64,000 bases of DNA from Flavobacteriales bacterium (GTDB lineage: Bacteria > Bacteroidota > Bacteroidia > Flavobacteriales_D > Cryomorphaceae), in NCBI GenBank assembly GCA_007125175.1, contig SLDS01000096.1, forward strand, positions 1 through 64,000, read 5' to 3'. Below the pieces are notes generated by a model, which did no database searches, was not told the origin of the DNA, and was given only the letters and a program-made list of their open reading frames with translations. Position numbers and translations under genes: made by a program. Positions 20,369 to 37,530 of the stretch are shown here, piece by piece (position 1 is the first letter of the stretch; each line of letters opens with the position of its first letter).

Positions 20369-21646
20369 TTAGATAATCATGCCTGCACCGACCGTCCTGT
20401 TGGTCGCCTCGTCGATCAAAATGACGCTTCCGGTGATCCGGTTGCGCGAGTAGCGATCGAAGAAAAGCGGGGTTGTCGTACGTACGGCAACCCTGGCGAT
20501 GTCATTCATCTGGATGTTTTTATCGTCCTCCAGACGGTGTAGGGTGTTGATGTCTACCTTGTAGCGAATGTCTTTTACGATGCATCGGGCATCCTTGCTG
20601 GTGTGCTTGATGGCGTATTTGCCATTTGGCCGTAAGGGCGATTCTCCCATCCAGCACAGCATCATCTCGATGTCCTGGCTTATTTCGGGCTGGTTGTTGG
20701 TTCGCACAATCATATCACCCCGACTCAGATCGTAGTCTTCCTCAAGGCATATGGTGACACTCATGGGCGCAAAGGCTTCGTCGAGTTCACCGTTGAAGGT
20801 GTTGATGGATGCGATTTTCGTGGTGAATCCTGTGGGAAGGAGGGTTACTTCATCTCCTTTCTTGAAGACTCCACCGGCGATGCGTCCGGCATAACCACGG
20901 AAATCGTGAAACTCATTGGTCTGAGGACGCACCACGTACTGCACCGGAAAACGGCAGTCCACGTGATTGTGGTCTCCGGAGATATGGATGTTTTCCAGGG
21001 TGTACATTAAGGTGCTTCCCTGATACCAATCCATTTTAGTGGATTTATTCACCACATTGTCACCCTTGAGGGCACTGATGGGTATGAAGCGGATGTCATT
21101 CACCTCGAGCTTGGAGCAAAAAGCTTCTAGCTCTTCGCGAATCTCTTCGAAGCGCTCTTCGCTGTAATCAACGAGATCCATCTTATTGATGCAAAACACG
21201 ATGTGCGGTATCTTGAGCAATGAGGCAATGAAGGAGTGCCTGCAAGTCTGCTCAACCAAACCATGCCGCGCATCCACCAGAATGATGGCCAAATTGGCCG
21301 TGGAGGCTCCGGTAACCATGTTGCGCGTGTACTGGATGTGACCTGGCGTATCGGCAATGATGAACTTCCGCTTCGGGGTCGCAAAGTAGCGATAGGCCAC
21401 GTCGATGGTAATGCCCTGCTCGCGCTCAGCTCTGAGGCCATCGGTGAGAAGGGCCAGGTTTACTTCTTCTTCGCCGCCAATCCTGGCACTGGCTTTCTCA
21501 ATAGCTTCCATTTGATCCTGGAAGATGCTCTTGCTATCGTAGAGCATGCGCCCTATAAGGGTTGATTTTCCATCATCTACGCTGCCTGCTGTTGTGAAGC
21601 GAAGCAGATCCATATCCATGTAGTTGTGTGCTCTGGGGGGGCTCAT
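20369..21646 (-). CDS. cysN: Sulfate adenylyltransferase subunit 1 (GTPase)
   Basis: 'TAGSVDDGKSTLIGRMLYDSK', 'ADTPGHIQYTRNMVTGAS', 'NKMDLVDYS'; adjacent to cysD. Confidence 0.95.
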   Translation of the reverse strand: MSPPRAHNYMDMDLLRFTTAGSVDDGKSTLIGRMLYDSKSIFQDQMEAIEKASARIGGEEEVNLALLTDGLRAEREQGITIDVAYRYFATPKRKFIIADTPGHIQYTRNMVTGASTANLAIILVDARHGLVEQTCRHSFIASLLKIPHIVFCINKMDLVDYSEERFEEIREELEAFCSKLEVNDIRFIPISALKGDNVVNKSTKMDWYQGSTLMYTLENIHISGDHNHVDCRFPVQYVVRPQTNEFHDFRGYAGRIAGGVFKKGDEVTLLPTGFTTKIASINTFNGELDEAFAPMSVTICLEEDYDLSRGDMIVRTNNQPEISQDIEMMLCWMGESPLRPNGKYAIKHTSKDARCIVKDIRYKVDINTLHRLEDDKNIQMNDIARVAVRTTTPLFFDRYSRNRITGSVILIDEATNRTVGAGMII

Positions 21647-21680: not shown

Positions 21681-22586
21681 TTAGAAATAACCTTGCTTCT
21701 TGCGGTCTTCCATAGCGGCTTCACTTCTCTTGTCGTCAGAGCGTGCTCCTCTTTCTGTAACCCGGGAAGCGGATACCTCTTCGATGATTTTTTCGAGGGT
21801 ATCGGCATTGGACAGCACGGCGCCGGTGCAGGTCATGTCACCAATGGTGCGAAAGCGCACTACTTGTTCTTCGACGATTTCGTTATCGCGGCGCTGTATA
21901 TAGTCGCATTCCGCGAGCAGGCTGCCGTCACGCTCAAATACCTTGCGGGTATGGCTGAAGTAGATTGAGGGAATTTCGATTTTCTCGTGGAGTATGTACT
22001 GCCAGATGTCCATCTCAGTCCAGTTGGATATGGGAAACACGCGGAAGTGCTCGCCCATCAGCTTTCGGCCATTGAAGATGTTCCAAAGCTCGGGACGCTG
22101 ATTTTTTGGATCCCATTGGCCAAATTCATCACGATGGGAGAAGAAGCGTTCCTTGGCACGGGCCTTTTCTTCATCGCGCCTTCCACCGCCCATAGCGGCA
22201 TCGAACTTTCCCTGTTCGAGAGATTCGAGCAAGGTGGCTGTCTGCAGGGCATTGCGGCTGGCATTGTAGCCTTTTTCCTCTACCACCAAGCCTTTGTCGA
22301 TGGAGTCTTGCACGGAGCCGACGATAAGTTGGACCCCGGTTTCGGCCACCAGCTTGTCTCGAAATTCGATCGTTTCAGGAAAGTTGTGGCCCGTATCTAC
22401 GTGCAACAGTGGAAAGGGCACCTTGGCAGGCCAAAAGGCCTTGCGCGCCAAGTGAAACATTACGATTGAGTCTTTTCCTCCCGAGAAGAGCATCACGGGA
22501 TTCTCGAATTGTGAAGCCACTTCGCGCAATACGAAGATCGATTCAGATTCGAGTTCTTTCAAGTGCGTTAAGCTGTATGATTGCAT
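21681..22586 (-). CDS. cysD: Sulfate adenylyltransferase subunit 2
   Basis: 'VMLFSGGKDSIVMFHLARKAFWPAKVPFPLLHVDTGHNFPE' PP-loop; C-terminal 'MEDRKKQGYF'. Confidence 0.97.
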   Translation of the reverse strand: MQSYSLTHLKELESESIFVLREVASQFENPVMLFSGGKDSIVMFHLARKAFWPAKVPFPLLHVDTGHNFPETIEFRDKLVAETGVQLIVGSVQDSIDKGLVVEEKGYNASRNALQTATLLESLEQGKFDAAMGGGRRDEEKARAKERFFSHRDEFGQWDPKNQRPELWNIFNGRKLMGEHFRVFPISNWTEMDIWQYILHEKIEIPSIYFSHTRKVFERDGSLLAECDYIQRRDNEIVEEQVVRFRTIGDMTCTGAVLSNADTLEKIIEEVSASRVTERGARSDDKRSEAAMEDRKKQGYF

Positions 22587-23194
22587 TAGCTTATCTTGAT
22601 TTTTGGGATGATGTATTCCAGCAATTCCTTCGCGGACTGCTGTGGACTTTTGTTGGCTGTTTTCAGCTGCACATGAGGCGCTTCTGGAGCCTCAAAGGGG
22701 GCGTCTATACCGGTGAAATCTTTGATTTCTCCTCTGCGTGCTTTTTTGTATAAACCCTTCACGTCGCGCTTTTCGCAAATTTCCAGAGGGGTATCCACAA
22801 AGACCTCTACGAAGCGATCATCACCTACGATCTCACGAGCCATTTGGCGTATAGCGAGGGTGGGGCTTACAAAGCAATTGATGGTGATGATGCCGCAATG
22901 ATTGAAGAGCTTGTTCACCTCGGCAATCCGACGGATGTTTTCCCTCCTGTCTGCATCGCTAAAGCTCAGATTATTGTTGAGGCCATGGCGCACATTGTCG
23001 CCATCGAGCAATTGGGTGAGGAATCCTTTTGCGTGAAGCTCGCGCTCCAGCACCTTGGCAATAGTGGTCTTGCCCGAGCCTGAGAGCCCGGTCATCCATA
23101 TGCACTGCGCTCTTTGCTTAAGGAGCTCCTCCTTATCGCTCTGCTGGAGGATTTCGTCGTATATGGTGAAGATGTTGTTCGCTTCTTCCTTCAT
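22586..23194 (-). CDS. cysC: Adenylylsulfate kinase
   Basis: '[58 protein letters not shown]'. Confidence 0.96.
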
Positions 23195-23320
23195 AAGGGG
23201 AGGGAATGTCGGCAAAAGTAACAATACTTGGTCGGATGGATGTATCCGCTTGCATATTACTGAGCCAGCTTATAAATAGTTTCACCTTTTCATAAGCAAT
23301 TGGTAAAGTAGCTTCTTTTT

Positions 23321-24043
23321 TCAACGCAAGTGCTTCCAGTATACCGAGCGGAAGGCATTGACCAAGGCATACATGCCATGCGATCCGCGCACCTGCCTGG
23401 ATTCCTTCCAATCGGAAGGAAATTCGTAGCCCCATTGCTGCATGTATGGAGCGAAGACACGCACAGCCCTTTGCCGGGCTTCAGGGCTGGCATAGTACTC
23501 ACTAAAGTGCTTTTTCTTGAGGCCGGTTTTGTTGAACTGTGGCAATTCTCTTACCGGCTCTATGCCAATCTTTTCCAGCACCCGACCAAAGTCTTCGCTG
23601 AGCTGCTCAAAGCGCATGAGATAATCGAGCTTGTCATGGCTCAGTATGCTCCAGGCGCTGTAGGGGAGCTTGTAATACTTTAGGAAGAACTGCTCAAAGC
23701 TCGCATCGTTTTGTACGATGAACCGATGGCGGGCGGCCTCATAACCCGGACTGATAAATTTGCGAAAGCGGCCGTGCTTCACCTTCTTGTTCTCGTAGTT
23801 TTCGTGGTCAGACTTGTACTTGAAATACTTGCTCACCACCACATCCATCGGATTCCGAATGGTCGAAAAGGAAAAATATTTCTTTTGCTCAGCACTGGCT
23901 TGTTTCAGAAATTCATGGTACTGTGCGTGTTTGAATAGAATTCTTTTGCCATCGTAGTGCTCCATGAGCTCTCTGGCTACTGCCGAGCATCCCGTTTGAG
24001 GAAACTCAATGAAAACATACCGATGGGTGTCGCTGATGATCAT
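23321..24043 (-). CDS. Sulfotransferase family protein (Sulfotransfer_2-like)
   Basis: 5'-phosphosulfate-loop-like 'YVFIEFPQTGCSAVARELM' and 3'-phosphate motif-like 'YFSFSTIRNPMDVVVSKYFKY'. Confidence 0.75.
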   Translation of the reverse strand: MIISDTHRYVFIEFPQTGCSAVARELMEHYDGKRILFKHAQYHEFLKQASAEQKKYFSFSTIRNPMDVVVSKYFKYKSDHENYENKKVKHGRFRKFISPGYEAARHRFIVQNDASFEQFFLKYYKLPYSAWSILSHDKLDYLMRFEQLSEDFGRVLEKIGIEPVRELPQFNKTGLKKKHFSEYYASPEARQRAVRVFAPYMQQWGYEFPSDWKESRQVRGSHGMYALVNAFRSVYWKHLR

Positions 24044-24310: not shown

Positions 24311-25684
24311 TTGAAAAAGAAGGTAAAAAGGCTGAAGAGCGTTCTGCTCAAGGGCGATTTTGGAGAGGTGTTCAAAGGGGGTAGTATCGCCTTTGTGTAC
24401 AGGGTGTGCTCGATGGGCCTGAGCTATGGCATTCTCTTCTTTATTTCGAAAAAGCTTGGTGAAGAGGGTGTTGGCATCTACAATCTTTGTCTCGCCATCT
24501 TGGGCATCCTGATCATGTTTGGCTGCTTGGGATTCAATACTTCACTGGTGCGCTTCGTTTCGCAATACCGTTCCAAGAATTGGAATTACAGCATTGTGAG
24601 CTTGTATCGCAGCACCGCCTTGCGCACCGGTACGCTCTCCATTGTTCTCGGCCTCATCGGTTTCTTTACCGCCGAGTGGGCGGCAGTGGAGCAATATGAA
24701 TCCGAAGACTTGATCATACCCTTTCAGATGGTGGCCATCATGCTGCCCTTCGGTGTGTTTGCGATGATGAATGTGGAATTCATACGGGGCTTGAAGAAGG
24801 TGCACATCAGCGAGTTTTTCAGAAATCTCGAGCTGCATTTGCTCACGGTTATTGGATTGATCATCGGCGTGTATTTCGGTCTGAGCTATTGGACTCCGGT
24901 GTTGTACTATGGCATTGGCACTGTGATCGCTGCGGTGGCTACAGGAGCCTTTGTTCTGCACTTCTTCAGTCAGCGGCGCTCTGAGGGCCTGTTGAAGCCT
25001 ATAGCCGATGAACCAAAATTTGAATTTCGCAGTCACTTCCTGGTGTCGATCCCAATGATCCTCACTTCTTTCATTCAGTTTTTGAACGGAAAGATCGACA
25101 CCTTGATGCTCGGCCTCTACACCGACAATGCAATGCTGGGCATTTTTACCATGGCCCTGAAGCTTTCCATCATCACCAATTTTGTAATCAGCTCGCTCAA
25201 TACCATTGCGAGCCCGAAAATTTCTGAGCTTTTTTGGAGCAAGAAAATGAATGAGCTCAACAAGGTGGTGCAGTCTTCGGCCCAGCTGATTTTCCTTTTT
25301 GCCCTTCCGGTAACCGCTGTTTTGCTCATATTCCCGAAGCAAATACTCGGGATCGTAGGTGAGCAATACCATGTTGGCACCCGAACCCTCCAGATATTTG
25401 CCATCACCCAAATGCTCAATTCCGTTTCTGGAATGGTGGCCATATTCTTGAATATGACCGGAAATCAGGTCTTTTTCACCCGACTCGTTGTCATCGCTAC
25501 AAGCATCAACATCGTGCTCAACCTGCTGCTCATTCCGCGCTACGGTATGGAAGGGGCGGCCATAGCAACGCTTATCAGTTCTGCCTTTTGGAATATCATT
25601 GGTGCGCGCTACATCTACAAGAAGTTTGGCATCCGCACTTACCTACACCCGAAGAGCCTCATCCGCGCCATCCGGCAATCATAG
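24311..25684 (+). CDS. Oligosaccharide flippase (Wzx / polysaccharide biosynthesis family)
   Basis: 457 aa, about 12-14 TM helices; 'GGSIAFVYRVCSMGLSYGILFFISKKLGEEGVGIYNL' and 'LLLIPRYGMEGAAIATLISSAFWN'; no upstream Met in the track, start approximate. Confidence 0.88.
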   Translation: MKKKVKRLKSVLLKGDFGEVFKGGSIAFVYRVCSMGLSYGILFFISKKLGEEGVGIYNLCLAILGILIMFGCLGFNTSLVRFVSQYRSKNWNYSIVSLYRSTALRTGTLSIVLGLIGFFTAEWAAVEQYESEDLIIPFQMVAIMLPFGVFAMMNVEFIRGLKKVHISEFFRNLELHLLTVIGLIIGVYFGLSYWTPVLYYGIGTVIAAVATGAFVLHFFSQRRSEGLLKPIADEPKFEFRSHFLVSIPMILTSFIQFLNGKIDTLMLGLYTDNAMLGIFTMALKLSIITNFVISSLNTIASPKISELFWSKKMNELNKVVQSSAQLIFLFALPVTAVLLIFPKQILGIVGEQYHVGTRTLQIFAITQMLNSVSGMVAIFLNMTGNQVFFTRLVVIATSINIVLNLLLIPRYGMEGAAIATLISSAFWNIIGARYIYKKFGIRTYLHPKSLIRAIRQS

Positions 25685-25696
25685 TGTGGGAGGGCC

Positions 25697-26602
25697 CTAT
25701 TTCCAGGCCTGGATTTCTCGACCCAAGAGTTTCTCGAGGGCCTGAATATCATCTCGGTAATAGAGATCGAGCTTTGCCTTTTGCTCTGCGCTTAAGCTTT
25801 GCCCTTTCTTTAAGTTGCGCGACTTGGCCCCTTTGCGGATTCGCTCCCGTTTTTCTTTGCTGTAAAGCGCTCTGAAGAAGGGGCGCAGGCTTTTCTTTAC
25901 AAGGTTCTCCTGAGTGATCAGCTTTTGCAAAAGCGGGTAGCGCGGCTTGCCCGAAGGATTGAATTGTTTGGAAGTTTTCAGGTCGAGAAAGCTATCCACC
26001 CCGATGTATTCGAAGAGTTCCTGCATGGCTTGCAGAGGCTGCTCTTTGAACTCTTCGTATATCATCACCTTCACATTCGAAAAGGCTTTCATATATGCCT
26101 CCACTTGACTTGCATAGAGGCCAAGTGCCCTGTGCTGCCACATGAAGTCCCAGCCTTCGCGGCGGCGCTCTTCTTCCAGCTCCAGGGCTTCCTCAAAGCT
26201 GCCCCGCTCATGTAAGTCTTTCACAAAGTGCATGTAGGATGAAAAGCAGCGCTCGCTGGGATGGCGTAGGATGACAATGATTTTCACATCTTCGCCCAGT
26301 GTTTCTCGGATTTTGGGAATGCTCTCTTCATGGTGGTAGAGGTAGCCCGTGCCAATTTCGCCGAGCACCTTGCCTTCTATGCCACGATATAGAGCGTCAT
26401 AGCTATCCCGGTCGAGAATCAGGTTTTCCTTAGAGCGCTGGGCAGGATAAGCCAGGTGATTGTTCGCATACATATCCCTCAAGAAGTAGAAAGTCTCCTT
26501 CATGGGGATGGCTATCTGGGGATGCTGCCGCAGATAGTGGTAAATAGAGGTCGTGCCGGCCTTTGCGGTTCCTACAAACAGAAAACTGGGTGCTTGAGGC
26601 AT
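25697..26602 (-). CDS. Sulfotransferase domain-containing protein
   Basis: 5'-PSB 'FLFVGTAKAGTTSIYHYLRQHPQIAIPMKETFYF' and 3'-PB 'VKIIVILRHPSERCFSSYMHFV'. Confidence 0.9.
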   Translation of the reverse strand: MPQAPSFLFVGTAKAGTTSIYHYLRQHPQIAIPMKETFYFLRDMYANNHLAYPAQRSKENLILDRDSYDALYRGIEGKVLGEIGTGYLYHHEESIPKIRETLGEDVKIIVILRHPSERCFSSYMHFVKDLHERGSFEEALELEEERRREGWDFMWQHRALGLYASQVEAYMKAFSNVKVMIYEEFKEQPLQAMQELFEYIGVDSFLDLKTSKQFNPSGKPRYPLLQKLITQENLVKKSLRPFFRALYSKEKRERIRKGAKSRNLKKGQSLSAEQKAKLDLYYRDDIQALEKLLGREIQAWK

Positions 26603-26609
26603 GGGGAGT

Positions 26610-27545
26610 TCACTTGGCCACCCAATGGCTCAAATCACGGTCGATGAGCCGGCTGAGCTTTTGGATGTCTTCGAGATAATACTGTTGCAAGGCGGCTTTT
26701 GTTTCGGGCTTCATGCTCTTCTTTTCGAGAAATCGCGCCATGACCTTGTCGCGTTTTTGCAGCAGATCATGTTTGAGGTTTTCCGGAAAGAGGTTCACAG
26801 CGGCCTTAAGCAAGCGGTTCTTGCGCAGTTGGTCTACAACAAACCGGTTTTTGGGTACCCCCGAAGGGTTGGCCTTCTTGGGGCGCTCCACTTCTATGGG
26901 AGCAATGCCCACAAAGCGAAAGAGGCGGTGTAGCAAGTCCTCATGATTCTTGAGCTCCTCCATAAAGCAAATCTCCACATGGTCAAAGTGCTTCAAGTAA
27001 GCTTCCACCTGTGCATGGTACTCCCCAAAGCCGAGATAATCGAAGCCCCAGCGAGCCTTACTGCGCTCAGCCATGCACTCGGGCTCGATGGCCTGCTCGA
27101 AGCTCAGATTCTCAAACCCATTCCTGATCAGGTAGTTGTAATGTGACCAGGCCCGAGCTACAGGGTTCCGCAGCATGATGATGATTTTCACCTCCCGAAG
27201 GCGATCGCCATAGTAGTGCTTCATCTGCTCGATCACCCTATCGTGCTGGTATAGATATGCCGTGGTGCCGTCAAAGCAGACTTGCTCGTCTTGAGCAGAC
27301 TCATAGAGCTGCAGGTACTCGTCTTCCTTGTACACTGCTTGCTCGCGCAATCCCGCATCGAGATGGGCTTCGGGCGGCTTCTGCCCGAAACAGAAAAACA
27401 TGGGCTCCTTTTTGGAATGCGGAAAAAAAACGTCCGGATGCAAAAGAAGCATCTGGTAGAGAGAGGTTGTTCCGCTTTTGGCAGCCCCAACAATGTGTAC
27501 ATCGGGCAGGCGCCGCCCCTGGTATGTGAAATGCTTTGCTTTCAA
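26610..27545 (-). CDS. Sulfotransferase domain-containing protein
   Basis: 5'-PSB 'VHIVGAAKSGTTSLYQMLLLHPDVFFPHSKKEPMFF' and 3'-PB 'VKIIIMLRNPVARAWSHYNYLI'. Confidence 0.9.
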   Translation of the reverse strand: MKAKHFTYQGRRLPDVHIVGAAKSGTTSLYQMLLLHPDVFFPHSKKEPMFFCFGQKPPEAHLDAGLREQAVYKEDEYLQLYESAQDEQVCFDGTTAYLYQHDRVIEQMKHYYGDRLREVKIIIMLRNPVARAWSHYNYLIRNGFENLSFEQAIEPECMAERSKARWGFDYLGFGEYHAQVEAYLKHFDHVEICFMEELKNHEDLLHRLFRFVGIAPIEVERPKKANPSGVPKNRFVVDQLRKNRLLKAAVNLFPENLKHDLLQKRDKVMARFLEKKSMKPETKAALQQYYLEDIQKLSRLIDRDLSHWVAK

Positions 27546-27652
27546 GGCTTCATTGTACGAGTGGCAAAAGTAGAAATTACCGCCATCACTCCACCATTCA
27601 CCATGGCGGCATCTTAGAGGTAACCTATCGCGATTTTTTGCGTTAGAGTTTC

Positions 27653-27718
27653 AAAGCCTTTTTCATAAGCATTTAGTATCTTAGCTCTCTTTTTTAGAGC
27701 TGGCTTATGAAGGCCTTT
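27653..27718 (+). repeat. Nested imperfect inverted repeats upstream of the wzy-like gene
   Basis: ttcataagc (27662-27670) / gcttatgaa (27703-27711) with a partial outer extension (aaagcc / ggccttt); inner agctct (27683-27688) / agagct (27696-27701). Confidence 0.6.
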
Positions 27719-27725
27719 TCTCCGC

Positions 27726-29048
27726 ATGCGCACACTGAGTCCACCCCTTAAGTCTTCTGCTGCCGATCACTTCATCAACAAGGGAACGCTGATCAGCATT
27801 TTCCTTTTTTTCAACTTGATGATATCGTATCGGGTGCTGCTCATCAGCCCGATTCCAGAGGTAGAGATGATCGCTGAACTCATTTATGAGTTCGTGCTCA
27901 TTTTCTATGTCATTTACAGGGTCATATCGCGCATCATCAGCCGAAATAGTCGGGTAAACCCCATAGAAATCTACTTGGGGATTTTGTTTTTACTCCCCTT
28001 GCAAGCCGCCTTCGCAGCCTGGAATGAGTTTGGGCAGCCCATCATCTACGGCATTGGTACTTACAGAGATTGGTACTTACTCTACTCGGCCTTGGTGGTC
28101 TATAACATGATTCGGTCGGGTATGGTGAGCCTCGAGTTGGTCGAACGCATGTTTCTGCTCACGGCATGGGTGAGCATTAGTATTTTCTATTTTATGTCCC
28201 TCTTCACCAATCCGGCCAATCACACCGAGGGGTCGCTTGCGGGGCGCAATACAGCCAAGGGAGGCGATGCCTACTACCGATTCAATATGACCTTCGTCTT
28301 CTTCGGAAGCATCTACTACTTTGTGAAGGCATTCTACAAGAATAAGGTGATCTATATCGCCTATGGCCTGCTCTTTCTCATTTATGTGGTCTTTTTCCGT
28401 TTCGATCGCACCTCTATTGCTGTACTTATAGGCGCGATTGCGGCTTTTTACATCACGGCCATTACCCCGCGTAGGCAGCTTACATGGCTTTTCTTTTCCA
28501 TAGCCCCGATCATTACAGTCATCCTGGTGGTATCCATTACGGCCCCGGAGATTTTCACGAGATATTATCTCATGTTTGCCGATGCATTTGCCACCCTCTT
28601 TGGTTCTTATACACCCAAGCAGGAGGAGTCTGTTCGCGTTGATGAGGTCAGGATTGCTTTTGAAGGTATCCGAAAGCACCCCATCATCGGCAATGGAAAG
28701 GTGAGCGGTAAGTGGGTAGAGGGAGGATACAATTATTTCCTCGGCTTCTTCTACGTGTCGGATGTGGGCATCTTTGGGCAGGTATATCTCTACGGCTTCC
28801 TGGGGGCCTTCATACTTTACTATCAGTTTGTGCTGCTTTACTACTACGCTTTTAAGATCAAGCACATCAAGAGAAACACCTTTCTCGTTACACTGAAGTT
28901 TTTCGCCTTGGCCCTGGCCCTGGATTCCATCACGCAAGGCTACTTGACCAATTATGCAGCCCAGTCCATCATGGCCATGGTCTTGGTCTATGCATTCTAT
29001 GAGCGCGATCGTGTAATCAATGCTAAGATCAAAGCCGGGGAAATGTGA
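27726..29048 (+). CDS. O-antigen polymerase-like (Wzy-type) integral membrane protein
   Basis: 440 aa, about 10-12 TM helices; large extracytoplasmic loop with 'VRIAFEGIRKHPIIGNGKVSGKW' typical of Wzy/ligase-type proteins; located in a polysaccharide cluster. Confidence 0.75.
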   Translation: MRTLSPPLKSSAADHFINKGTLISIFLFFNLMISYRVLLISPIPEVEMIAELIYEFVLIFYVIYRVISRIISRNSRVNPIEIYLGILFLLPLQAAFAAWNEFGQPIIYGIGTYRDWYLLYSALVVYNMIRSGMVSLELVERMFLLTAWVSISIFYFMSLFTNPANHTEGSLAGRNTAKGGDAYYRFNMTFVFFGSIYYFVKAFYKNKVIYIAYGLLFLIYVVFFRFDRTSIAVLIGAIAAFYITAITPRRQLTWLFFSIAPIITVILVVSITAPEIFTRYYLMFADAFATLFGSYTPKQEESVRVDEVRIAFEGIRKHPIIGNGKVSGKWVEGGYNYFLGFFYVSDVGIFGQVYLYGFLGAFILYYQFVLLYYYAFKIKHIKRNTFLVTLKFFALALALDSITQGYLTNYAAQSIMAMVLVYAFYERDRVINAKIKAGEM

Positions 29049-29094
29049 ATCCCGGCCGTCAGAAGCCCAATGCTGCATTCAAGAAAGTCTCTAC

Positions 29095-30081
29095 ATGAGT
29101 GAAAACGACCGAAAGAAGGCCCCCAATTTTTTTGTAATTGGCGTGGTAAAAGGAGGAACCACCTCCTTGTATCACTATTTGGAGCAACATCCAGACATCT
29201 ATCTGCCACCCATTAAGGAGACCAACCATTTTGCGGCAGCCGATATTGATCATGCCCATTTTCTTCCCACCTATGCCAGGGATGTTGATATCGATCTCGA
29301 TGCCTACATCCGTTCTGGCATGAAGAGGCAAGTGCACATCGCCCACGTAGATGATCCTGCGCATTACGCAGCCTTGTTCACCAGGGTGAAGGGAGAGAAA
29401 GCAGTGGGCGAGATCAGCAATTCATACATGATCTGCCCATCTGCGGCCGGAGCCATCCACGCCTATGCCCCCGATGCCAAGATCATCGTGGTGCTGCGCA
29501 ATCCGGTGAGGAGGGCGTGGTCCCAATATCTCATGAACCTTCGTGAGGCCAAAAGCGATGACATCGCCTTCAAGGATGAACTGCTTCGGGATCACCATGC
29601 AGAGAGAAAAGGCTGGGGAGTGAATCACCAATACCTTCAGCTGGGCTGCTATGCCGATCAGCTCAAGGCCTACATCGATCTTTTCGGCAAGCAGAATGTA
29701 CTCCCGATATTTTTTGAGCCCTACCGCTCCGACCCGCAAAAGGTGATGCGGGAGATCTGTACATTTCTCGGAGTAGACTCTGATTTTGCCTTCGACTTTT
29801 CGGTCGAGAGCAATAAGGCCAGCATGCCCCGCAATAAGACTCTGAACAAGCTCCTGGTATCGAGTGGCCTGCTAAACGGGGTGAAAAACCTGACGCCCAA
29901 GCCCATTCGAAAGCATTTTGCCAAAGTGCTTTACAGCGAAAATAAGATTCCCAAGCTCAGCGCAGCCGATAGAGAATGGTTGCAAGAGTGGTACCGAGCC
30001 GAGGTGAAGAAATTGGCTGATCTGCTCGGCGACGAGGTTTACACCCATTGGCCCGAATTTAAAACGACTATCCCCGCATGA
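29095..30081 (+). CDS. Sulfotransferase domain-containing protein
   Basis: 'NFFVIGVVKGGTTSLYHYLEQHPDIYLPPIKETNHFA' and 'AKIIVVLRNPVRRAWSQYLMNLREA'; start MSENDRKK. Confidence 0.9.
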   Translation: MSENDRKKAPNFFVIGVVKGGTTSLYHYLEQHPDIYLPPIKETNHFAAADIDHAHFLPTYARDVDIDLDAYIRSGMKRQVHIAHVDDPAHYAALFTRVKGEKAVGEISNSYMICPSAAGAIHAYAPDAKIIVVLRNPVRRAWSQYLMNLREAKSDDIAFKDELLRDHHAERKGWGVNHQYLQLGCYADQLKAYIDLFGKQNVLPIFFEPYRSDPQKVMREICTFLGVDSDFAFDFSVESNKASMPRNKTLNKLLVSSGLLNGVKNLTPKPIRKHFAKVLYSENKIPKLSAADREWLQEWYRAEVKKLADLLGDEVYTHWPEFKTTIPA

Positions 30082-31121
30082 AAGCTTCAGAAACCAAAGC
30101 GGACTGGCCGACCTTTTTCATCGTTGGAAATTCCCGGAGCGGCACCACCATGATGATGCGCATCGCAAACAACCACAGCGAGGTGCATTCGATCAATGAG
30201 CCACATTTTTTCGAGAAGCTCTGGTCGCCCGATGATGGCGAGAAGAGCATTTCCCGAAAGGAAGCTTTCCAGCTCTATGCCAAGCTATTCACGGGGCAAA
30301 GGGCGGGATTTTTCGAGCCTGTTGAGAAGCACGTAGAGAGCTACAGATCCGAGACCGAGAGCATACTCGGCAGCTATGATCAGCCCCTCTCAAGACTAGG
30401 CGTTTACAGGCACTTCATTCATTATGAAGCCCGGAAGAATGGCAAGAGCATCCCCTGCGAGAAAACACCGCAAAACGTTTTTTACATCAGTGAGATTCTT
30501 GAGCATTTTCCCAATGCGCGTATCATCAATATGGTGCGTGATCCGAGAGGGGTAATGCTTTCGCAAAAAAGGAAGTGGAAGCGCAAGTTTCTCGGCGCAG
30601 ATTTCATCACAAGACGCGAGATGTGGAGACTCCGCATCAATTATCACCCCATCACCATCAGCAAATTGTGGAATGCCGCCATAGGTGCTGTGCAAGCTTT
30701 TGAAGGTGAGGCAAGATTGATGAATGTGCGCTTTGAAGATTTGCTGGCTGAGCCGGAGGAAACAGTCAAGGCAATTTGCAATTTTCTGGGCATTGCTTAT
30801 GAAGCAGAGATGCTTCTCGTGCCACATGCGGGCTCCTCCAGTGAGGCCGACCGAAAGGACAGCCTCGGGATCAAGAAAACAAGGGCGAAGGGCTGGCTTG
30901 ACAAAGGTCTTAGCCACACGGAAATAGGAATTTGTCAGCGCACATGCAAGAAGTACATGGACCAGTACGGTTATGAGGCAATCGATGTTAAGAGCCGGGT
31001 CTTGGCGAATGCATGGCATCACTTGAATTTTCCATTCAAGATAGCCTTGGCGCTGATTGTAAATGTAAAACGCATGCGCAGCATTGGAGACACCCTCAAG
31101 AGGCGTCTCAGCCCGAAGTAA
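30078..31121 (+). CDS. Sulfotransferase family protein (distinct subgroup)
   Basis: 'TFFIVGNSRSGTTMMMRIANNHSEVHSINEPHFFEKL' and 'ARIINMVRDPRGVMLSQKRKWKRKF'; overlaps the preceding stop. Confidence 0.85.
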   Translation: MKASETKADWPTFFIVGNSRSGTTMMMRIANNHSEVHSINEPHFFEKLWSPDDGEKSISRKEAFQLYAKLFTGQRAGFFEPVEKHVESYRSETESILGSYDQPLSRLGVYRHFIHYEARKNGKSIPCEKTPQNVFYISEILEHFPNARIINMVRDPRGVMLSQKRKWKRKFLGADFITRREMWRLRINYHPITISKLWNAAIGAVQAFEGEARLMNVRFEDLLAEPEETVKAICNFLGIAYEAEMLLVPHAGSSSEADRKDSLGIKKTRAKGWLDKGLSHTEIGICQRTCKKYMDQYGYEAIDVKSRVLANAWHHLNFPFKIALALIVNVKRMRSIGDTLKRRLSPK

Positions 31122-31134
31122 AAAAGCAAAAGAG

Positions 31135-31923
31135 ATGCAAAGGCGAGTACATTTGTTCGAATTTGATTTTCAATCGGCACCCTCAGTGCGCGAAGTCGCG
31201 GAGGATGTGATAAGTCGGGAGGCTCCGGAAGAGGGCAGAATACCCCTGATGGTGACCCCAAATGTGGATCAGGTGGTAAAGCTCAATCGGGCCGAAAACA
31301 AGGCCTTGAAAAAACGCCTGCTCAAGGCCCAGTGGATACTACCCGATGGGCAGCCCATAGTGGCCATGAGCAAGATCAAATTTGGCCGGAATGGCCTGGA
31401 AACCCGCCTTACCGGTAGCGACTTTTTCCCGGTAATCTGGGAGCTGCTCAAGCAAAGACCGGAAGTACCCGTCCTCTTTGTCTTGCCCAATGAAGAGCTC
31501 GGTGAGCGCTTCACTGCAGAGCGGCCAAATACAGCATATTATGCACCACCTTTCTTCGACCTCAAGGATGAGGAGGCCTTTGTCGAAGTGATGGATCAGG
31601 TGAAAGCAGCTCAGGAGGAGCTGGGTGCGGCCTATGTATTCATCGGTTTGGGGATGCCCAAGCAAGAGCACATTGCAATCGCTCTCTTCGATTATCTGAG
31701 CAGTCTTTCGCAGCCCCTGCCCAAGACATTTCTTCTGGGAGCTTCTTTTGAGTTTTACTGGGGAGTGAAGAAGCGGGCACCCAAGATCTACCAAAAGCTG
31801 GGTATCGAATTTGTGCACCGCATCATCACAGAGCCCCGGCGTATGGCCAAGCGTTATCTAGTAGATGATTTGGCAATCATTCCTATCGGTTTCAGAGAGC
31901 TCTTCAAGAAAGCGCAATCCTGA
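31135..31923 (+). CDS. WecB/TagA/CpsF family glycosyltransferase
   Basis: 'VTPNVDQVVKLNRAENKALKKRLLKAQWILPDGQPIVAMSKIKF...RLTGSDFFPVIWELL' and 'AAYVFIGLGMPKQEHIA'. Confidence 0.9.
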   Translation: MQRRVHLFEFDFQSAPSVREVAEDVISREAPEEGRIPLMVTPNVDQVVKLNRAENKALKKRLLKAQWILPDGQPIVAMSKIKFGRNGLETRLTGSDFFPVIWELLKQRPEVPVLFVLPNEELGERFTAERPNTAYYAPPFFDLKDEEAFVEVMDQVKAAQEELGAAYVFIGLGMPKQEHIAIALFDYLSSLSQPLPKTFLLGASFEFYWGVKKRAPKIYQKLGIEFVHRIITEPRRMAKRYLVDDLAIIPIGFRELFKKAQS

Positions 31924-31995: not shown

Positions 31996-33192
31996 TCAGT
32001 GCTTCGAGGTGCTCAGCCCTTCCAGCAAGCTATCATGCTCGGCGAGCAATGCCTTCCAGGTGTATCGGCGTACGAGTCGGCGAGAGGCAGCTTGCATTTC
32101 CTCCCATAGCTTTGGCTCCTCAAGCAGACGCGAAATATGCTCCGCTTGCTCTTCCGGGTCGAGGCTGGAGAAGAGATGCTCTCCCGAGGCTACCTCCAAT
32201 CCTTCTGTACCTATGGGGGTGGTCACCACGGGTATGCCGCGGTACATGGCATGGAGCAGCTTCACTTTGATACCGCTACCGAAGCGCAAGGGAATCACAA
32301 AAACGCGGGCCTTGCGGTGATAGGGTTCAAGATCTTTTACGAAGCCCTTGAGCATGATACGGGAGTCTTCATCCGCTACTTTTTGCAGGCGGGGATCGGG
32401 ATTCTTTCCAAGTATGTAGAAGCGGATATTCGATTGCTTTTCGAGCAAACGTGGCCACACTTCATCGAAAAACCAGAGCAAACCATCTACATTGGCTTCC
32501 CAGGTAAGGGTGCCAACAAATAGGAGGCTTTTCTCCGTTTCATCAAAGCGTATGGAGGCCAAATCCAGCATTTCGTCTTCGCCGAGGTGGTAAGTGAGCT
32601 GGCATTTTTGCCGGTCTACTCCCACCTTGACCAGCTCTTCGATGTCATTGGGCGCTGCGAGCACTGCATCCGCCTTATCGGCGTAGATCCGCTCAGCCCG
32701 CGCTATGCGCTTCGCCTCGAGCGTGAGCGCCAGTTTTTTGAATGGGGAATTCTCAATTTCACCAAGGCGCTTCCACATCACATACTCGGCATTGTGCTCG
32801 TGAAGCACCACCTTGGCCTTACTCCTCTCGGGGATGTATTGACCCATCTCGTAGTGATCTACGAAAATGATGTCCGAATCTGAAGCCCATTGTTTTACCC
32901 GATCTGCAATCTCTGGTGAGGCATTTCGGTACACATTCAGGGATGGGGCGCTGATGTAGCTCTTCAGCAGGTTGAGTGCGCTGCGCTCCCGGCCTAGTGG
33001 GTGGCCAAAGACCTCCACGCCTTTCACTTTTCGACGGAAGGCTTCGAGGTTTTGAGCATCTTCATTTTTGAGCCCACATACGATGCGCAGCTCATATTTT
33101 TGCGCCCAATGCTCCACCAACCTCCACGATTTGATAACGCCACCGCTTACGGGTGGATAGGGAAGCTGGGTGGTGAGGAAGAGTATCTTCAT
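31996..33192 (-). CDS. Glycosyltransferase (GT4-like)
   Basis: Start MKILFLTTQLPYPPVSGGVIKSW; 'LLFVGTLTWEANVDGLLWFFDEVWP' and 'VFVIPLRFGSGIKVKLLHAMYRGIPVVTTPIGTEGL'. Confidence 0.9.
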   Translation of the reverse strand: MKILFLTTQLPYPPVSGGVIKSWRLVEHWAQKYELRIVCGLKNEDAQNLEAFRRKVKGVEVFGHPLGRERSALNLLKSYISAPSLNVYRNASPEIADRVKQWASDSDIIFVDHYEMGQYIPERSKAKVVLHEHNAEYVMWKRLGEIENSPFKKLALTLEAKRIARAERIYADKADAVLAAPNDIEELVKVGVDRQKCQLTYHLGEDEMLDLASIRFDETEKSLLFVGTLTWEANVDGLLWFFDEVWPRLLEKQSNIRFYILGKNPDPRLQKVADEDSRIMLKGFVKDLEPYHRKARVFVIPLRFGSGIKVKLLHAMYRGIPVVTTPIGTEGLEVASGEHLFSSLDPEEQAEHISRLLEEPKLWEEMQAASRRLVRRYTWKALLAEHDSLLEGLSTSKH

Positions 33193-33196
33193 CGTA

Positions 33197-35599
33197 CTAG
33201 ATTCGGAGGAAGACCCTGCGAATGCGGCCAAATATTCCGAGCGGCTTGTTGTTTTCGTAATTGTTACGCTTTTCGAAAATATTGATACTCACCTCCGAAT
33301 CGAAGGTATCGGTCAGCACCAAGAAGGGATCCTGAAGCACCCCTTCGAGGATGTGGTCTTGAACATCTCCGAGGGTTTTGATCTTGATGGTCTTTCTGCG
33401 CAGCATCACGATGCTCGCATCGGAGGAGTTGAGCAGATGCAAGACTGTACTCTGATTCATGTAGGGCGAGGTGTCCAGGATTACCCGGTCATAGCGCTGG
33501 CACAGCTCTTTCAATAGGTCGCTAAGTCGCGCCATCTCTTTGTCGTTGATTTGCTTTTGTTCCCCGCAGTCGGCTACATCGAGATTTTCTATGCCACTCG
33601 GGATTAAGGCCTCGTCAAGGCTTATATCACCTTTCAGAACATGGATGAGATTTTCGCTCTGTCCAAGTTTGAATGCCCTCTTGGCTTTTGGGTTTTTCAA
33701 ATTGGCATCCACAAGAATGGTTTTGTAACCCGCCATGGCCAGGCGTACTGCAAACATTTGCGAGAAAAAGCTTTTGCCATTTCGGGGCTGCGGAGAACCT
33801 ACTCCTATAAGCTTGGCATCGGGGTTCTTTTGCGACAGGGCATAGTGGATGCTGTACAGCCTTTGAGCCAGAGTGGAATCCGGATAGTCTTGCAGATCAA
33901 ATGGATTGCTGATATTGGTATGGTACACCTCTCCAAGCACCGGATTGGTGGGAATGTGACGGCGCACATCTTCCGCACTGTCGAGCGTGGAGTTGAAGAT
34001 CCACCTCCACATGATATAGGCGAAGGCAAACATAAACCCGAAAATAATCGCGGCAATAATAGTAATTGGGAAATTTGGCAGGGTTGGATCTGTAGATGTG
34101 AGGTGCGGGGGATCAATGATCTGAAAATCGGGGGCAGTAGAAACCAGGGTAATTTCGGCATCGGCTTTCTTTTCCATAAGGCTCAGGTATAGCCTCTCGT
34201 TTACACGGAAAAAGCGTTCCATCTCCATGAGCTCGCGCTGAGCTTTTGGCAGCTCGGAAGCTTCTTGCCGCATGGTGTTGAGCCGCTCATTGATGTTGTT
34301 GATCATCACGTCGTTGCTTTGTTTGAGCCCCGTCACTGAGCGAAGTATGGTACTGCGATTCGTATTTATTTGAGATTGCAGCTGGCGGTATACAGGGTTG
34401 TTTTCAGCCCCCATATCCTTGATAGAATTCATCTCTTGCTGCATGCGCACAAGCTCTTCTGTAAGCCGTATAATCAACTGATCTTTGACTCCAAAGGCTT
34501 GAGGAGAAATCAAAGATTCGTAATCGGAACTCTCCTTCAAAAAAGTCTCCAGATAATTGTAATATTTTTCCTTCACCAAGAAGTTGACTTTGTCATTTTC
34601 CATCTGCACCATTTGCTCCAGAAGCAATGTACCTTCCCGGTTGAGGCTGGTTATTGACTTGTCGGTTTTATATCGCTCGATTTCTGTTCCGCTAGTCGTC
34701 AGTTTTTCCTCGGTGTCGGCGATTTCTTGTTCCAGAAATTCGATGGCGAGCCTCAGGGTATGGGTTTTGCTCTCCATGTGGTCACTGATGAACAATCGAC
34801 CTATGGACTCTAGCAGGGCAAGCTGCTTGGATGGGGCAGCTCCTGCCAGGCTTACGCCAAATACCGTAGACTCAAGTTCTTCGGGCTCAATATCCAGATT
34901 GGTCATCAAATCAAGGGTAACGGCTTCAGTGTCCTTGATTACGAATCCGTAAGACTCGCCTAAGATTTCGCTATTAGCCTCACCACCAGAATAAAGTGTT
35001 TCCTCAACGGGCAGCACACGAAAGCGCGTTTTATCGAATTCTATCCACTCACCGAAAGAGAAAGTGCCCTCAAGCTCAAACTCTTGCTTGTTCACGGCAT
35101 ACTTGCCTTCCACTTCGAGGTGAAATTGCCTAAGGTCATCAAACTCGACTTTGAACATGGCACCATAAGGAGTTTCATGATTTACGAAACTCATGTAAGT
35201 GGAGTCAAGCTCCACCCGTATGGGTGAGGAATTGTAAATTTCAGTGTTGAATAAACCTCTTCGGTAATAGGATACTGATCCAATCTCTTCTACAGCTCTT
35301 CTTATGAGTGGATAGCTGCGCAAACGCACCTTATTGTTGTTGTAGAAGTAGTCTTCGGTCTTGATGAAGCCGGAGCTCATGGATACCACCGAGGCCGGGT
35401 CATTGCCACCTCGGGGCTTATCAATAAGTATACTCGTTTTGGCGGTATACCTCGGGGGGAAGGTAAGTTGGAATACCATACCCAGAAATAGCCATCCGCC
35501 CAGGCAAATGAGCAGAACCGGCCAGCCTCGCTTAAAGCGATTCAGTATGCCGCGGAAGTCGATTTCTTCTCGCCTCAGTACATCTTTCTCGTTAATCAT
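33197..35599 (-). CDS. Polysaccharide co-polymerase / BY-kinase-like protein (Wzc/GumC family)
   Basis: 800 aa; two TM segments flanking a coiled-coil periplasmic domain; C-terminal ATPase with 'GVGSPQPRNGKSFFSQMFA', 'ILVDANLKNPK', 'VILDTSPYM'. Confidence 0.88.
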   Translation of the reverse strand: MINEKDVLRREEIDFRGILNRFKRGWPVLLICLGGWLFLGMVFQLTFPPRYTAKTSILIDKPRGGNDPASVVSMSSGFIKTEDYFYNNNKVRLRSYPLIRRAVEEIGSVSYYRRGLFNTEIYNSSPIRVELDSTYMSFVNHETPYGAMFKVEFDDLRQFHLEVEGKYAVNKQEFELEGTFSFGEWIEFDKTRFRVLPVEETLYSGGEANSEILGESYGFVIKDTEAVTLDLMTNLDIEPEELESTVFGVSLAGAAPSKQLALLESIGRLFISDHMESKTHTLRLAIEFLEQEIADTEEKLTTSGTEIERYKTDKSITSLNREGTLLLEQMVQMENDKVNFLVKEKYYNYLETFLKESSDYESLISPQAFGVKDQLIIRLTEELVRMQQEMNSIKDMGAENNPVYRQLQSQINTNRSTILRSVTGLKQSNDVMINNINERLNTMRQEASELPKAQRELMEMERFFRVNERLYLSLMEKKADAEITLVSTAPDFQIIDPPHLTSTDPTLPNFPITIIAAIIFGFMFAFAYIMWRWIFNSTLDSAEDVRRHIPTNPVLGEVYHTNISNPFDLQDYPDSTLAQRLYSIHYALSQKNPDAKLIGVGSPQPRNGKSFFSQMFAVRLAMAGYKTILVDANLKNPKAKRAFKLGQSENLIHVLKGDISLDEALIPSGIENLDVADCGEQKQINDKEMARLSDLLKELCQRYDRVILDTSPYMNQSTVLHLLNSSDASIVMLRRKTIKIKTLGDVQDHILEGVLQDPFLVLTDTFDSEVSINIFEKRNNYENNKPLGIFGRIRRVFLRI

Positions 35600-35600
35600 G

Positions 35601-36386
35601 TCAGCGGATTAGGAGGTAAACAGTGATAGCCGATAGGACCACAGCGATTCCATTGTAGACATTCTGGATGTCGCGTGTGGCAAACTTCTTGCGCTTCTGC
35701 GGCCTAACGAGCAACACATCGTTGGGCTCCAGGAAGAAGGCGGGATTGCTCAACAAGTTTTGATCTGTGAGATCCACGTGATAGAGGTGGTTCACCCCAT
35801 CGCGGTTGCGGATTACTTTCACCTCTTCCCTACTGGCAAAGTCGGTGGCGTCATTGGCCAGACCCATTGCCTCAAAGATGTTGAGCTTGTGGTTGTATAC
35901 AGGATAGCGCCCCGGAGTATTCACCTCTCCAAGCACGGTTACAAAGAAGTTGAGCAGGAAGACCTTGATCGCTGGATTAGGGAACACCTTTGACGCGGCT
36001 ACATCAATTATTTGCTGCGCTTCAAAGATGGTCTTACCCACCACATTGACCTTGCCTATGGTGGGCAGAGTTATGTCGCCGTTCCTATCAACCGTAAAAC
36101 CGGCGAGCACCGGCAAAACTTGGACGATACGCGTATCGTTCATGTAGTTTTCGTCAAGCCTACCCAGCGATTGAGAGAGCTGGGGGTGGTCAGATTTTAC
36201 ATAGAGGATATCGCCGAGCTCGATGCGGTAATCGTGCTGGTGAGCTGCAAAAATGGTGTCAGCCAAGTAATCGTGAGGCCTTTTTTGACTGTAGTCCTGA
36301 ACATAAACGATGCGTTTATTGGAAATGCACGATGCCATAAATGCACCGAAAGCCACAAACAGGACGAGACGAACTATTTTTTTCAT
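35601..36386 (-). CDS. Polysaccharide biosynthesis/export lipoprotein (Wza-like)
   Basis: Lipobox FGAFMASC; 'YRIELGDILYVK...FTVDRNGDITLPTIGKVNVVGKTIFEAQQII' and SLBB-like 'FVTVLGEVNTPGRYPVYNHKLNIFEAMGLA'. Confidence 0.93.
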   Translation of the reverse strand: MKKIVRLVLFVAFGAFMASCISNKRIVYVQDYSQKRPHDYLADTIFAAHQHDYRIELGDILYVKSDHPQLSQSLGRLDENYMNDTRIVQVLPVLAGFTVDRNGDITLPTIGKVNVVGKTIFEAQQIIDVAASKVFPNPAIKVFLLNFFVTVLGEVNTPGRYPVYNHKLNIFEAMGLANDATDFASREEVKVIRNRDGVNHLYHVDLTDQNLLSNPAFFLEPNDVLLVRPQKRKKFATRDIQNVYNGIAVVLSAITVYLLIR

Positions 36387-36723: not shown

Positions 36724-37530
36724 ATGAAGGAAAAGGACACGCAGGCCTTGCTGGAAATCGCTATACAAGGAGCGGTATTGGGAGGCTTGGAAATTCTCGA
36801 TGTGTACGAGTCTGATTTTGCGGTGGAAACCAAAGAGGATAAATCGCCCCTTACCCTCGCAGATCGCCGGGCACACGAAAAGATTGTTGAAGTGCTGAGG
36901 CAAACGGAAATTCCCGTGCTGAGTGAGGAGGGCAAATCCATTGAGCACTCAGTTCGCAGTAAATGGGGGCGTTTTTGGATGGTTGACCCCCTTGATGGCA
37001 CCAAGGAATTTGTGAAGCGAAACGGTGAGTTCACGGTTAATATTGCCCTGATAGATAATGGTGTGCCAATAGCCGGAGTAATTTACGTGCCGGTAAAAGC
37101 TGATCTGTATTTTGGGTGGCTCGGTGGAGCTTCCTACAAGCTGGGAGGGTTTACTCAGAATGAATCAGCCGATCTGAAAGCCCTATGTGAGGCTGGTGTG
37201 AAATTGCCTCTTGAGGCCAATGGCCGCCCCTTCACCGCAGTGGGCAGCCGCTCACATATGTCGCCTGAGACCGAGCAGTTTTTCAAAGAGCTCAAGCAGG
37301 AGCATGGTGAAATCGAAGTGGTTTCTATGGGCAGTTCCCTTAAAATATGCCTCGTAGCCGAGGGCAAGGCCGATGTATACCCGCGTTTTGCGCCTACGAT
37401 GGAGTGGGACACAGCCGCCGGACATGCCATTGCTTTGGGGGCGGGCAAGGAAGTCATCGATCACAGCACAGGGCAGCCCATGCGCTACAATAAGGAAAAC
37501 CTGCTCAACAACTGGTTTATCGTTCGCTGA
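36724..37530 (+). CDS. cysQ: 3'(2'),5'-bisphosphate nucleotidase
   Basis: Inositol-monophosphatase-fold motifs 'WMVDPLDGTKEFVKRNGEFTVNIALI' and 'PTMEWDTAAGHAI'. Confidence 0.93.
   Translation: MKEKDTQALLEIAIQGAVLGGLEILDVYESDFAVETKEDKSPLTLADRRAHEKIVEVLRQTEIPVLSEEGKSIEHSVRSKWGRFWMVDPLDGTKEFVKRNGEFTVNIALIDNGVPIAGVIYVPVKADLYFGWLGGASYKLGGFTQNESADLKALCEAGVKLPLEANGRPFTAVGSRSHMSPETEQFFKELKQEHGEIEVVSMGSSLKICLVAEGKADVYPRFAPTMEWDTAAGHAIALGAGKEVIDHSTGQPMRYNKENLLNNWFIVR

Follow-up and report, generated by a model that had tools for sequence, protein, structure and literature searches.

The 64,000-nucleotide stretch of DNA analysed here (the window: positions 1 to 64,000 of contig SLDS01000096.1, from an uncultured Flavobacteriales bacterium, assembly GCA_007125175.1) carries neighboring sulfotransferase genes among genes for polysaccharide export, and it raises the question of why one locus should hold several such enzymes: are they recent copies of a single gene, or distinct enzymes kept together to sulfate different positions of one product? 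A first-pass annotation, made from the sequence alone, had described three closely related sulfotransferases resembling the heparan-sulfate-type/NDST fold, derived by local duplication with divergence and suggestive of sulfation at different positions or sugars of the same polymer. All three open reading frames (STA, STB and STC) are present where it placed them, and their 5'-PSB, 3'-PB and KET/KEP/KET motifs are confirmed exactly, but three is an undercount, as a fourth sulfotransferase (STD) and a probable fifth (ST5) adjoin them.

Gene content of the locus

The genes of the cluster, with strand and supporting evidence, are:

20369..21646, minus strand: cysN, sulfate adenylyltransferase large subunit (NCBIfam NF003478 and TIGR02034, above cut-off)
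21681..22586, minus strand: cysD, sulfate adenylyltransferase small subunit (NCBIfam TIGR02039, above cut-off)
22586..23224, minus strand: cysC, PAPS-forming APS kinase (NCBIfam TIGR00455, above cut-off)
23321..24043, minus strand: ST5, probable fifth sulfotransferase, PF03567-like (31 bits, cut-off 22; orthologs)
24311..25684, plus strand: wzx-type flippase, Polysacc_synt (PF01943, 94 bits)
25697..26602, minus strand: STA, sulfotransferase, PF13469/PF00685 (profile match, orthologs, AlphaFold2 model, hydropathy)
26610..27545, minus strand: STB, sulfotransferase, PF13469/PF00685, TTG start (profile match, orthologs)
27726..29048, plus strand: wzy-type polymerase, Wzy_C (PF04932, 31.9 bits, cut-off 31.7; synteny)
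29095..30081, plus strand: STC, sulfotransferase, PF13469/PF00685 (profile match, orthologs)
30078..31121, plus strand: STD, fourth sulfotransferase, PF13469, 109 bits (profile match, orthologs)
31084..31923, plus strand: wecG, WecG/TagA/CpsF glycosyltransferase (PF03808; TIGR00696 above cut-off)
31996..33231, minus strand: GT4-type glycosyltransferase (PF13692, 100 bits)
33197..35599, minus strand: wzc-type co-polymerase with tyrosine-kinase-like domain (PF02706, PF13807, PF13614)
35601..36386, minus strand: wza-type outer-membrane export protein (PF02563, SLBB)
36724..37530, plus strand: cysQ, 3'(2'),5'-bisphosphate nucleotidase, removing PAP (TIGR01331, 263.7 bits, cut-off 228.8)

STA, STB, STC and STD exceed the Pfam gathering cut-offs for both PF13469 and PF00685, the PF13469 match of STD being the best of all, and their clustering is beyond chance, with four of the genome's five PF13469 matches inside about 5 kb of 3.35 Mb. 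Seven bases separate the end of STB from the start of STA, and STC and STD overlap by 4 bases; the open frame of STC reaches back to 29020, and alignment with its orthologs agrees with a start at the ATG at 29095. Hydropathy finds no transmembrane segment in any of the sulfotransferases which, being without a membrane segment or signal peptide, are probably cytoplasmic.

This one locus encodes CysDN, CysC, four clear sulfotransferases and one probable, CysQ and the Wzx/Wzy/Wzc/Wza route, and by predicted gene function it forms a complete polysaccharide cluster of the Wzx/Wzy type, equipped to supply PAPS itself (cysD, cysN, cysC) and to dispose (cysQ) of PAP, the inhibitory by-product of sulfotransferases. 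The wzy assignment combines a match at the cut-off with synteny, its syntenic homologs in other clusters being 33–60% identical. There are two glycosyltransferases and no priming transferase in this copy of the cluster; the genome has three Bac_transf genes at other sites.

Although cysC is the genome's only APS-kinase match, a strict tie between APS kinase and the cluster was not upheld: in a hand-picked set all 9 cluster-positive genomes have the kinase, and so do 7 of the 15 cluster-negative ones. The sulfite-reductase domain PF01077 was undetected in the host genome and in all 24 genomes tested, cluster-negative relatives included. Its absence fits, weakly, with PAPS made for sulfation, and an argument from it that PAPS serves sulfation solely is weak when all 24 genomes are alike. 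CysDN may also serve assimilation, because a CysH reductase is encoded in the genome and sulfite reductase is absent from the cluster-negative relatives too.

Motifs, fold and nearest structures

By family and motifs STA, STB and STC are sulfotransferases, with sulfate transfer from PAPS as their putative reaction. Their 5'-PSB motifs read VGTAKAGTTSIY, VGAAKSGTTSLY and IGVVKGGTTSLY, their 3'-PB motifs LRHPSERCFSSY, LRNPVARAWSHY and LRNPVRRAWSQY, and their KE motifs KET, KEP and KET, respectively; the orthologs of each show little or no variation in the PSB, in the KE motif or at the R-x7-S positions of the 3'-PB, and the PAPS-binding residues are intact. STD also has an intact PSB and R-x7-S, which vary as little among its own orthologs (motifs SRSGTT for the PSB, INEPHFF, CEKTPQ and RDPRGVMLS). 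The PSB of ST5 is degenerate, with its lysine replaced (PQTGCS), so that its predicted activity is uncertain.

The nearest solved structure for STA, STB and STC is 3RNL, a sulfotransferase of the bacterium Alicyclobacillus acidocaldarius (E 4e-50, 7e-36 and 2e-49), for which we know of no assigned acceptor; the heparan-sulfate 3-OST/NDST enzymes come next. The AlphaFold2 model of STA (pLDDT 87) gives the same order, with 3RNL as best PDB match (TM-score 0.92 by target length, 28% identical in the Foldseek alignment) and then 3-OST/NDST (6xl8, 1t8t and 1nst, E about 1e-9 to 1e-11), while the STC model, at pLDDT 64, was too poor for structure search. The KE of STA and STB aligns with AEPHFF of 3-OST3, giving the catalytic-position Glu and aromatics of an EPHFF-type motif, and that of STC was placed at the catalytic-position Glu through alignment to 3RNL. 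The 3-OSTs and the NDST sulfotransferase domain have in common with STA, STB and STC the fold, the PSB, this Glu and the 3'-PB, but are only 14–20% identical to them, and at the EKTPSYF motif, whose Lys 3-OST-1 cannot do without, the aligned residue is I in STA, G in STB and I in STC (STD retains EKTP). The structure comparisons support the resemblance to 3-OST/NDST proposed in the first-pass annotation as one of fold; true membership of that group is ruled out by the missing Lys and the low identity.

Relationship and distribution of the sulfotransferase types

Pairwise identity among STA, STB and STC is 34%, 35% and 29%, with Z = 58, 60 and 40 against shuffles, so that their similarity is far above chance, but the earlier description of them as closely related is too strong at this level. 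Orthologs are 51–59% identical for STA (7 genomes), 43–55% for STB (6 genomes), 47–63% for STC (8 genomes), 42–65% for STD (9 genomes) and 71, 65 and 44% for ST5; some genomes also have a distinct type, STB2, a relative of STB at 33–36% identity. In the tree the A and C types form separate clades with full support, and a single clade was rejected when forced on all types (A+B+B2+C; p-AU 7.6e-63), the value for A+B+B2 alone being 0.0056.

Judged from these comparisons, the sulfotransferases are several old, long-diverged lineages, not recent copies of one gene. That they are recent local duplicates, and partly redundant, is very improbable: they do adjoin at 29–35% identity, and STB has its relative STB2 in some genomes, but orthologs across families, at 43–63% for STA to STC, lie well above the neighbors at the locus, and the separate clades and the rejected single clade contradict it. 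Recent tandem duplication is rejected on these grounds, and the proposed local duplication with divergence is not supported. The annotation had named unrelated clades, acquired separately, as what would count against it; STC does belong to a different clade from STA and STB, but separate acquisition finds no such support, the types co-occurring in every genome having them.

Ten further genomes of uncultured Flavobacteriales, representing at least three families, carry the core wzx-STB-STA-wzy-STC-STD-wecG completely or partially, some of the contigs counted being partial. In one copy (L058) the core is collinear on one strand with cysC-cysD-cysN. Across families STA and STB sit between wzx and wzy, and STC and STD between wzy and wecG. 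In 399 Flavobacteriales genomes, strong STA matches (8) coincide with strong STC matches (9), the sole exception being a 5 kb contig that ends within wzy (G013). Every cluster copy on contigs complete enough to judge has STA, STC and STD; STB or STB2 is absent from some genomes (G002 has STB2 only), and some copies lack ST5 while in others it is degenerate. Two independent clusters (L126 and L127) have cysC-cysD-cysN-cysQ-wzx adjoining three sulfotransferases. Within the family the distribution of the cluster is patchy.

A proposed pathway and its relation to known systems

Very probably the locus serves the synthesis and export of a sulfated polysaccharide, extracellular or capsular, whose lipid-linked repeat unit is sulfated at different sugars or positions; gene content and conservation are observed, and from them we infer the chemistry and the position specificity. 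On known enzymology, CysDN would form APS and CysC PAPS, the sulfotransferases, probably in the cytoplasm, would sulfate the repeat unit, CysQ would destroy the PAP, and the sulfated unit would be flipped by Wzx, polymerised by Wzy and exported by Wzc/Wza. Sulfation at several positions, as first suggested, best accounts for the way other cluster copies retain the types as separate neighbors, and the likeliest explanation for the number of enzymes is a fixed division of labor between acceptor positions, each type being an old lineage maintained beside the others. More tentatively, the product may be a conserved Flavobacteriales polymer, similar to glycosaminoglycans, in which the sulfation code is fixed: four to six old sulfotransferases, each dedicated, would set it position by position on the lipid-linked repeat unit, served by their own PAPS supply and PAP disposal; such sulfation before polymerisation would differ from that of animal heparan sulfate, in which finished chains are variably edited.

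An equally tentative alternative keeps the sulfated polymer and lets specificity follow sugar or chain context instead of ring position, some of the enzymes being accessory as in synechan (PMC8205485, PMC13125312); the genomes lacking STB or STB2 and the loss or decay of ST5 favor it, but the retention of STA, STC and STD does not. Bacterial sulfotransferases with other acceptors are known from Nod factor and mycobacterial glycolipids (PMC8205485), and cysC occurs in cluster-negative relatives, yet action on a lipid, secondary metabolite or protein, with the placement in an exopolysaccharide (EPS) locus incidental, is unlikely given the conserved positions between wzx, wzy and wecG and the polysaccharide substrates of the nearest solved eukaryotic relatives.

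Among bacteria, sulfated polysaccharides were described in 2021 as exclusively cyanobacterial (PMC8205485); for mats from Shark Bay, a metagenomic study of sulfated EPS found no sulfotransferase gene in any Bacteroidetes assembly and cast the phylum as degraders (PMC9723792), and the producers and genes of sulfated polymers in granular sludge are still unassigned (PMC10483923). Searches of open-licence papers turned up no description of such a cluster in Bacteroidota. With PAPS supply, several sulfotransferases and export in one compact and conserved unit, the present cluster is a concrete candidate, at the level of genes, for the production of sulfated polymers in a phylum mostly portrayed as degrading them, and a source of putative polysaccharide sulfotransferases for sulfated glycan synthesis.

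The putative sulfated-glycosaminoglycan cluster of Pontiella sulfatireligans (Verrucomicrobiota) likewise concerns a non-cyanobacterial exopolymer and PF13469 sulfotransferases, but its description, in the sections available, gives one sulfotransferase and does not mention a Wzx/Wzy core or PAPS module (PMC7356697). The synechan (xss) cluster of Synechocystis PCC 6803 is, like the present one, a Wzx/Wzy-type EPS cluster with sulfotransferases inside it, and modification of its repeat unit on the cytoplasmic side has been proposed (PMC8205485); loss of XssA abolishes synechan, and loss of XssE substantially changes neither bloom formation nor the amount of EPS (PMC8205485, PMC13125312). It has two sulfotransferases of distinct subfamilies, eight glycosyltransferases and the regulators XssQRS (PMC8205485). 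No regulators of the XssQ/R/S type were noticed among the annotated genes of our cluster. The Flavobacteriales system belongs to a different phylum and has four to six sulfotransferases, with two glycosyltransferases and cysCDN/cysQ at the locus studied here. With wzx, wzy, a co-polymerase and at least one sulfotransferase in one locus, the combination that marks the synechan type, the Flavobacteriales cluster is best read as a new version of the synechan-type system for sulfated EPS, and one that is better equipped.

Gene content of the locus

The three sulfotransferases called by the first-pass annotation (STA, STB and STC) are open reading frames exactly where it had placed them, and all three exceed the gathering cut-offs of PF13469 and PF00685 in profile searches. 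Two further genes, STD and ST5, had been missed.

25697-26602, minus strand: STA, sulfotransferase
26610-27545, minus strand: STB, sulfotransferase
29095-30081, plus strand: STC, sulfotransferase
30078-31121, plus strand: STD, the strongest sulfotransferase match of all, overlapping the end of STC by 4 bases
23321-24043, minus strand: ST5, a probable fifth sulfotransferase, PF03567-like, with the lysine of its PAPS-binding loop (5'-PSB) replaced (PQTGCS)

The window genome is a 3.35 Mb assembly, 95% complete, from an uncultured member of the Flavobacteriales. It has five PF13469 matches, four of them within 5 kb at this locus. Profile searches find cysN, cysD, cysC, wzx, wzy, wecG, GT4, wzc, wza and cysQ (above the TIGR01331 cut-off) flanking the sulfotransferases. 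Genes for activating and transferring sulfate, for clearing PAP, and for flipping, polymerising and exporting the polymer thus sit together in about 17 kb. No priming transferase is found in the window copy of the cluster; a genus-mate, L058 and L060 carry one within theirs, and the window genome has three Bac_transf genes outside the cluster. Away from the main cluster the window also encodes a sugar nucleotidyltransferase (50263-51264) and a second flippase-like protein (51743-53224; PF01943 just under cut-off), and the same genome holds a second wza/wzc/wzx locus with a GT and a sulfotransferase-like protein of sub-threshold PF13469 score, 25 bits (L046, G000:C86:18000-32112).

A CysH reductase is encoded on a different contig (L121:6859-7524), while the NIR_SIR domain (PF01077, sulfite/nitrite reductase) was not found in 24 Flavobacteriales genomes, the window genome and 23 relatives, so CysDN may be shared between sulfation and assimilation.

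Distribution and history of the sulfotransferases

A core of wzx, STB and/or the related type STB2, STA, wzy, STC, STD and wecG recurs in the same genus (G001, G002), the same family (G005, G007), families elsewhere in the order (G011, G013, G023, G029) and two further named assemblies, L058 (UBA6057) and L060 (HKST-UBA117). All are draft assemblies, the named ones metagenome-assembled, and some contigs are fragmentary (G013 ends inside wzy; G023 is split over two contigs, STD not recovered). According to database records, some relatives come from station ALOHA and from sediment; the name of one points to the Caspian Sea. L058 and L060 have the core on one strand in a single order, with cysC-cysD-cysN next in L058, which suggests an ancestral single operon whose STA/STB block has been inverted in the window. 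Among 399 genomes sampled across the order, strong matches to STA (E < 1e-90) occur in 8 and to STC (E < 1e-140) in 9, the same genomes except the truncated G013. Neither is present in three further genera of the window genome's family, which makes the distribution patchy. When 396 genomes from across the phylum were sampled, the window genome alone gave a strong STC match, with one other match at 1e-57.

Relatives carry additional genes absent from the window copy. A lipoprotein-like protein of ~490-520 residues lies between wzy and STC (L037:4013-5566, L058:8438-9925, L060:8465-9931; those of L037 and L058 match no Pfam family). Other relatives have, within the cluster, one or two genes for MBOAT-type acyltransferases together with a partner protein (L053:12859-16715, L041:15325-17764, L040:2904-5371; Pfam confirms one copy), and their presence suggests that the same polymer may be acylated there.

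The three proteins had been read as products of local duplication with divergence. They do share similarity (pairwise identity 34%, 35% and 29%; Z of 58, 60 and 40 against shuffled sequence), but these window neighbours are less alike than orthologs across genomes (STA 51-59%, STB 43-55%, STC 47-63%). In the tree STA (100/99), STC (100/98) and STB2, a fourth type (100/100), form separate clades, and STB one group of weaker support (89/77); STA and STB are placed alongside 3RNL and sulfotransferases from further families of Flavobacteriales, STC elsewhere. With constrained groups chosen after the first tree was seen, a single clade of all four types is rejected (p-AU 7.6e-63), as is one of A, B and B2 (p 0.0056). 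The paralogy is thus older than the families sampled, and local duplication in the window genome does not hold; even so, the types have stayed a single set, whether by descent or by transfer.

Predicted mechanism and acceptors

The 5'-PSB, 3'-PB and KE motifs were quoted exactly by the first-pass annotation, and alignments show them invariant or nearly so among orthologs. Its likeness to heparan-sulfate/NDST enzymes stands for the fold: a good STA model (pLDDT 87) best matches 3RNL among solved structures (E 1.5e-18), then heparan-sulfate 3-OST-3, 3-OST-1 and NDST1, and sequence searches agree. It does not extend to the EKTPSYF motif, whose lysine is replaced in STA, STB and STC (STD retains EKTP). 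The KE motif aligns with the catalytic-position glutamate of 3-OST; with the lysine replaced, A, B and C could act like 3-OST/NDST enzymes without belonging to that subfamily. No sulfotransferase of the cluster has a transmembrane segment, which makes the cytoplasm the most likely site of sulfation, with the lipid-linked repeat as the substrate ahead of flipping by Wzx. That several old types are kept together would argue for distinct acceptor positions.

With its PSB lysine replaced, ST5 may be inactive or bind PAPS by a different mode. Three orthologs have Gln in place of that lysine, and a fourth has Leu (window 23321-24043; L036:6915-7634; L038:17274-17990; L039:234-1010); conservation at 44-71% despite its loss raises the question of an inactive or re-purposed sulfotransferase.

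Analogous clusters and known systems

In another family, L126 (G312) and L127 (G344) each have cysC-cysD-cysN-cysQ adjoining wzx, wzy and three sulfotransferases; L125, L128 and L131 group several sulfotransferases with wzx. These clusters, from other families of the order, differ in gene content from the window core. That genes for making PAPS, for removing PAP and for several sulfotransferases are independently linked to Wzx/Wzy genes there is the strongest support for the predicted function.

In the Shark Bay survey the Bacteroidetes assemblies yielded no sulfotransferase (PMC9723792), and a 2026 transfer study still calls the bacteria able to make sulfated polysaccharides limited (PMC13125312). 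Sulfated GAG-like polymers outside cyanobacteria, their genes unclear, are described from granular sludge (PMC10483923) and from Pontiella (PMC7356697). Among the open-licence papers searched, the nearest described system is synechan, with two sulfotransferases, eight GTs and Wzx/Wzy (PMC8205485).
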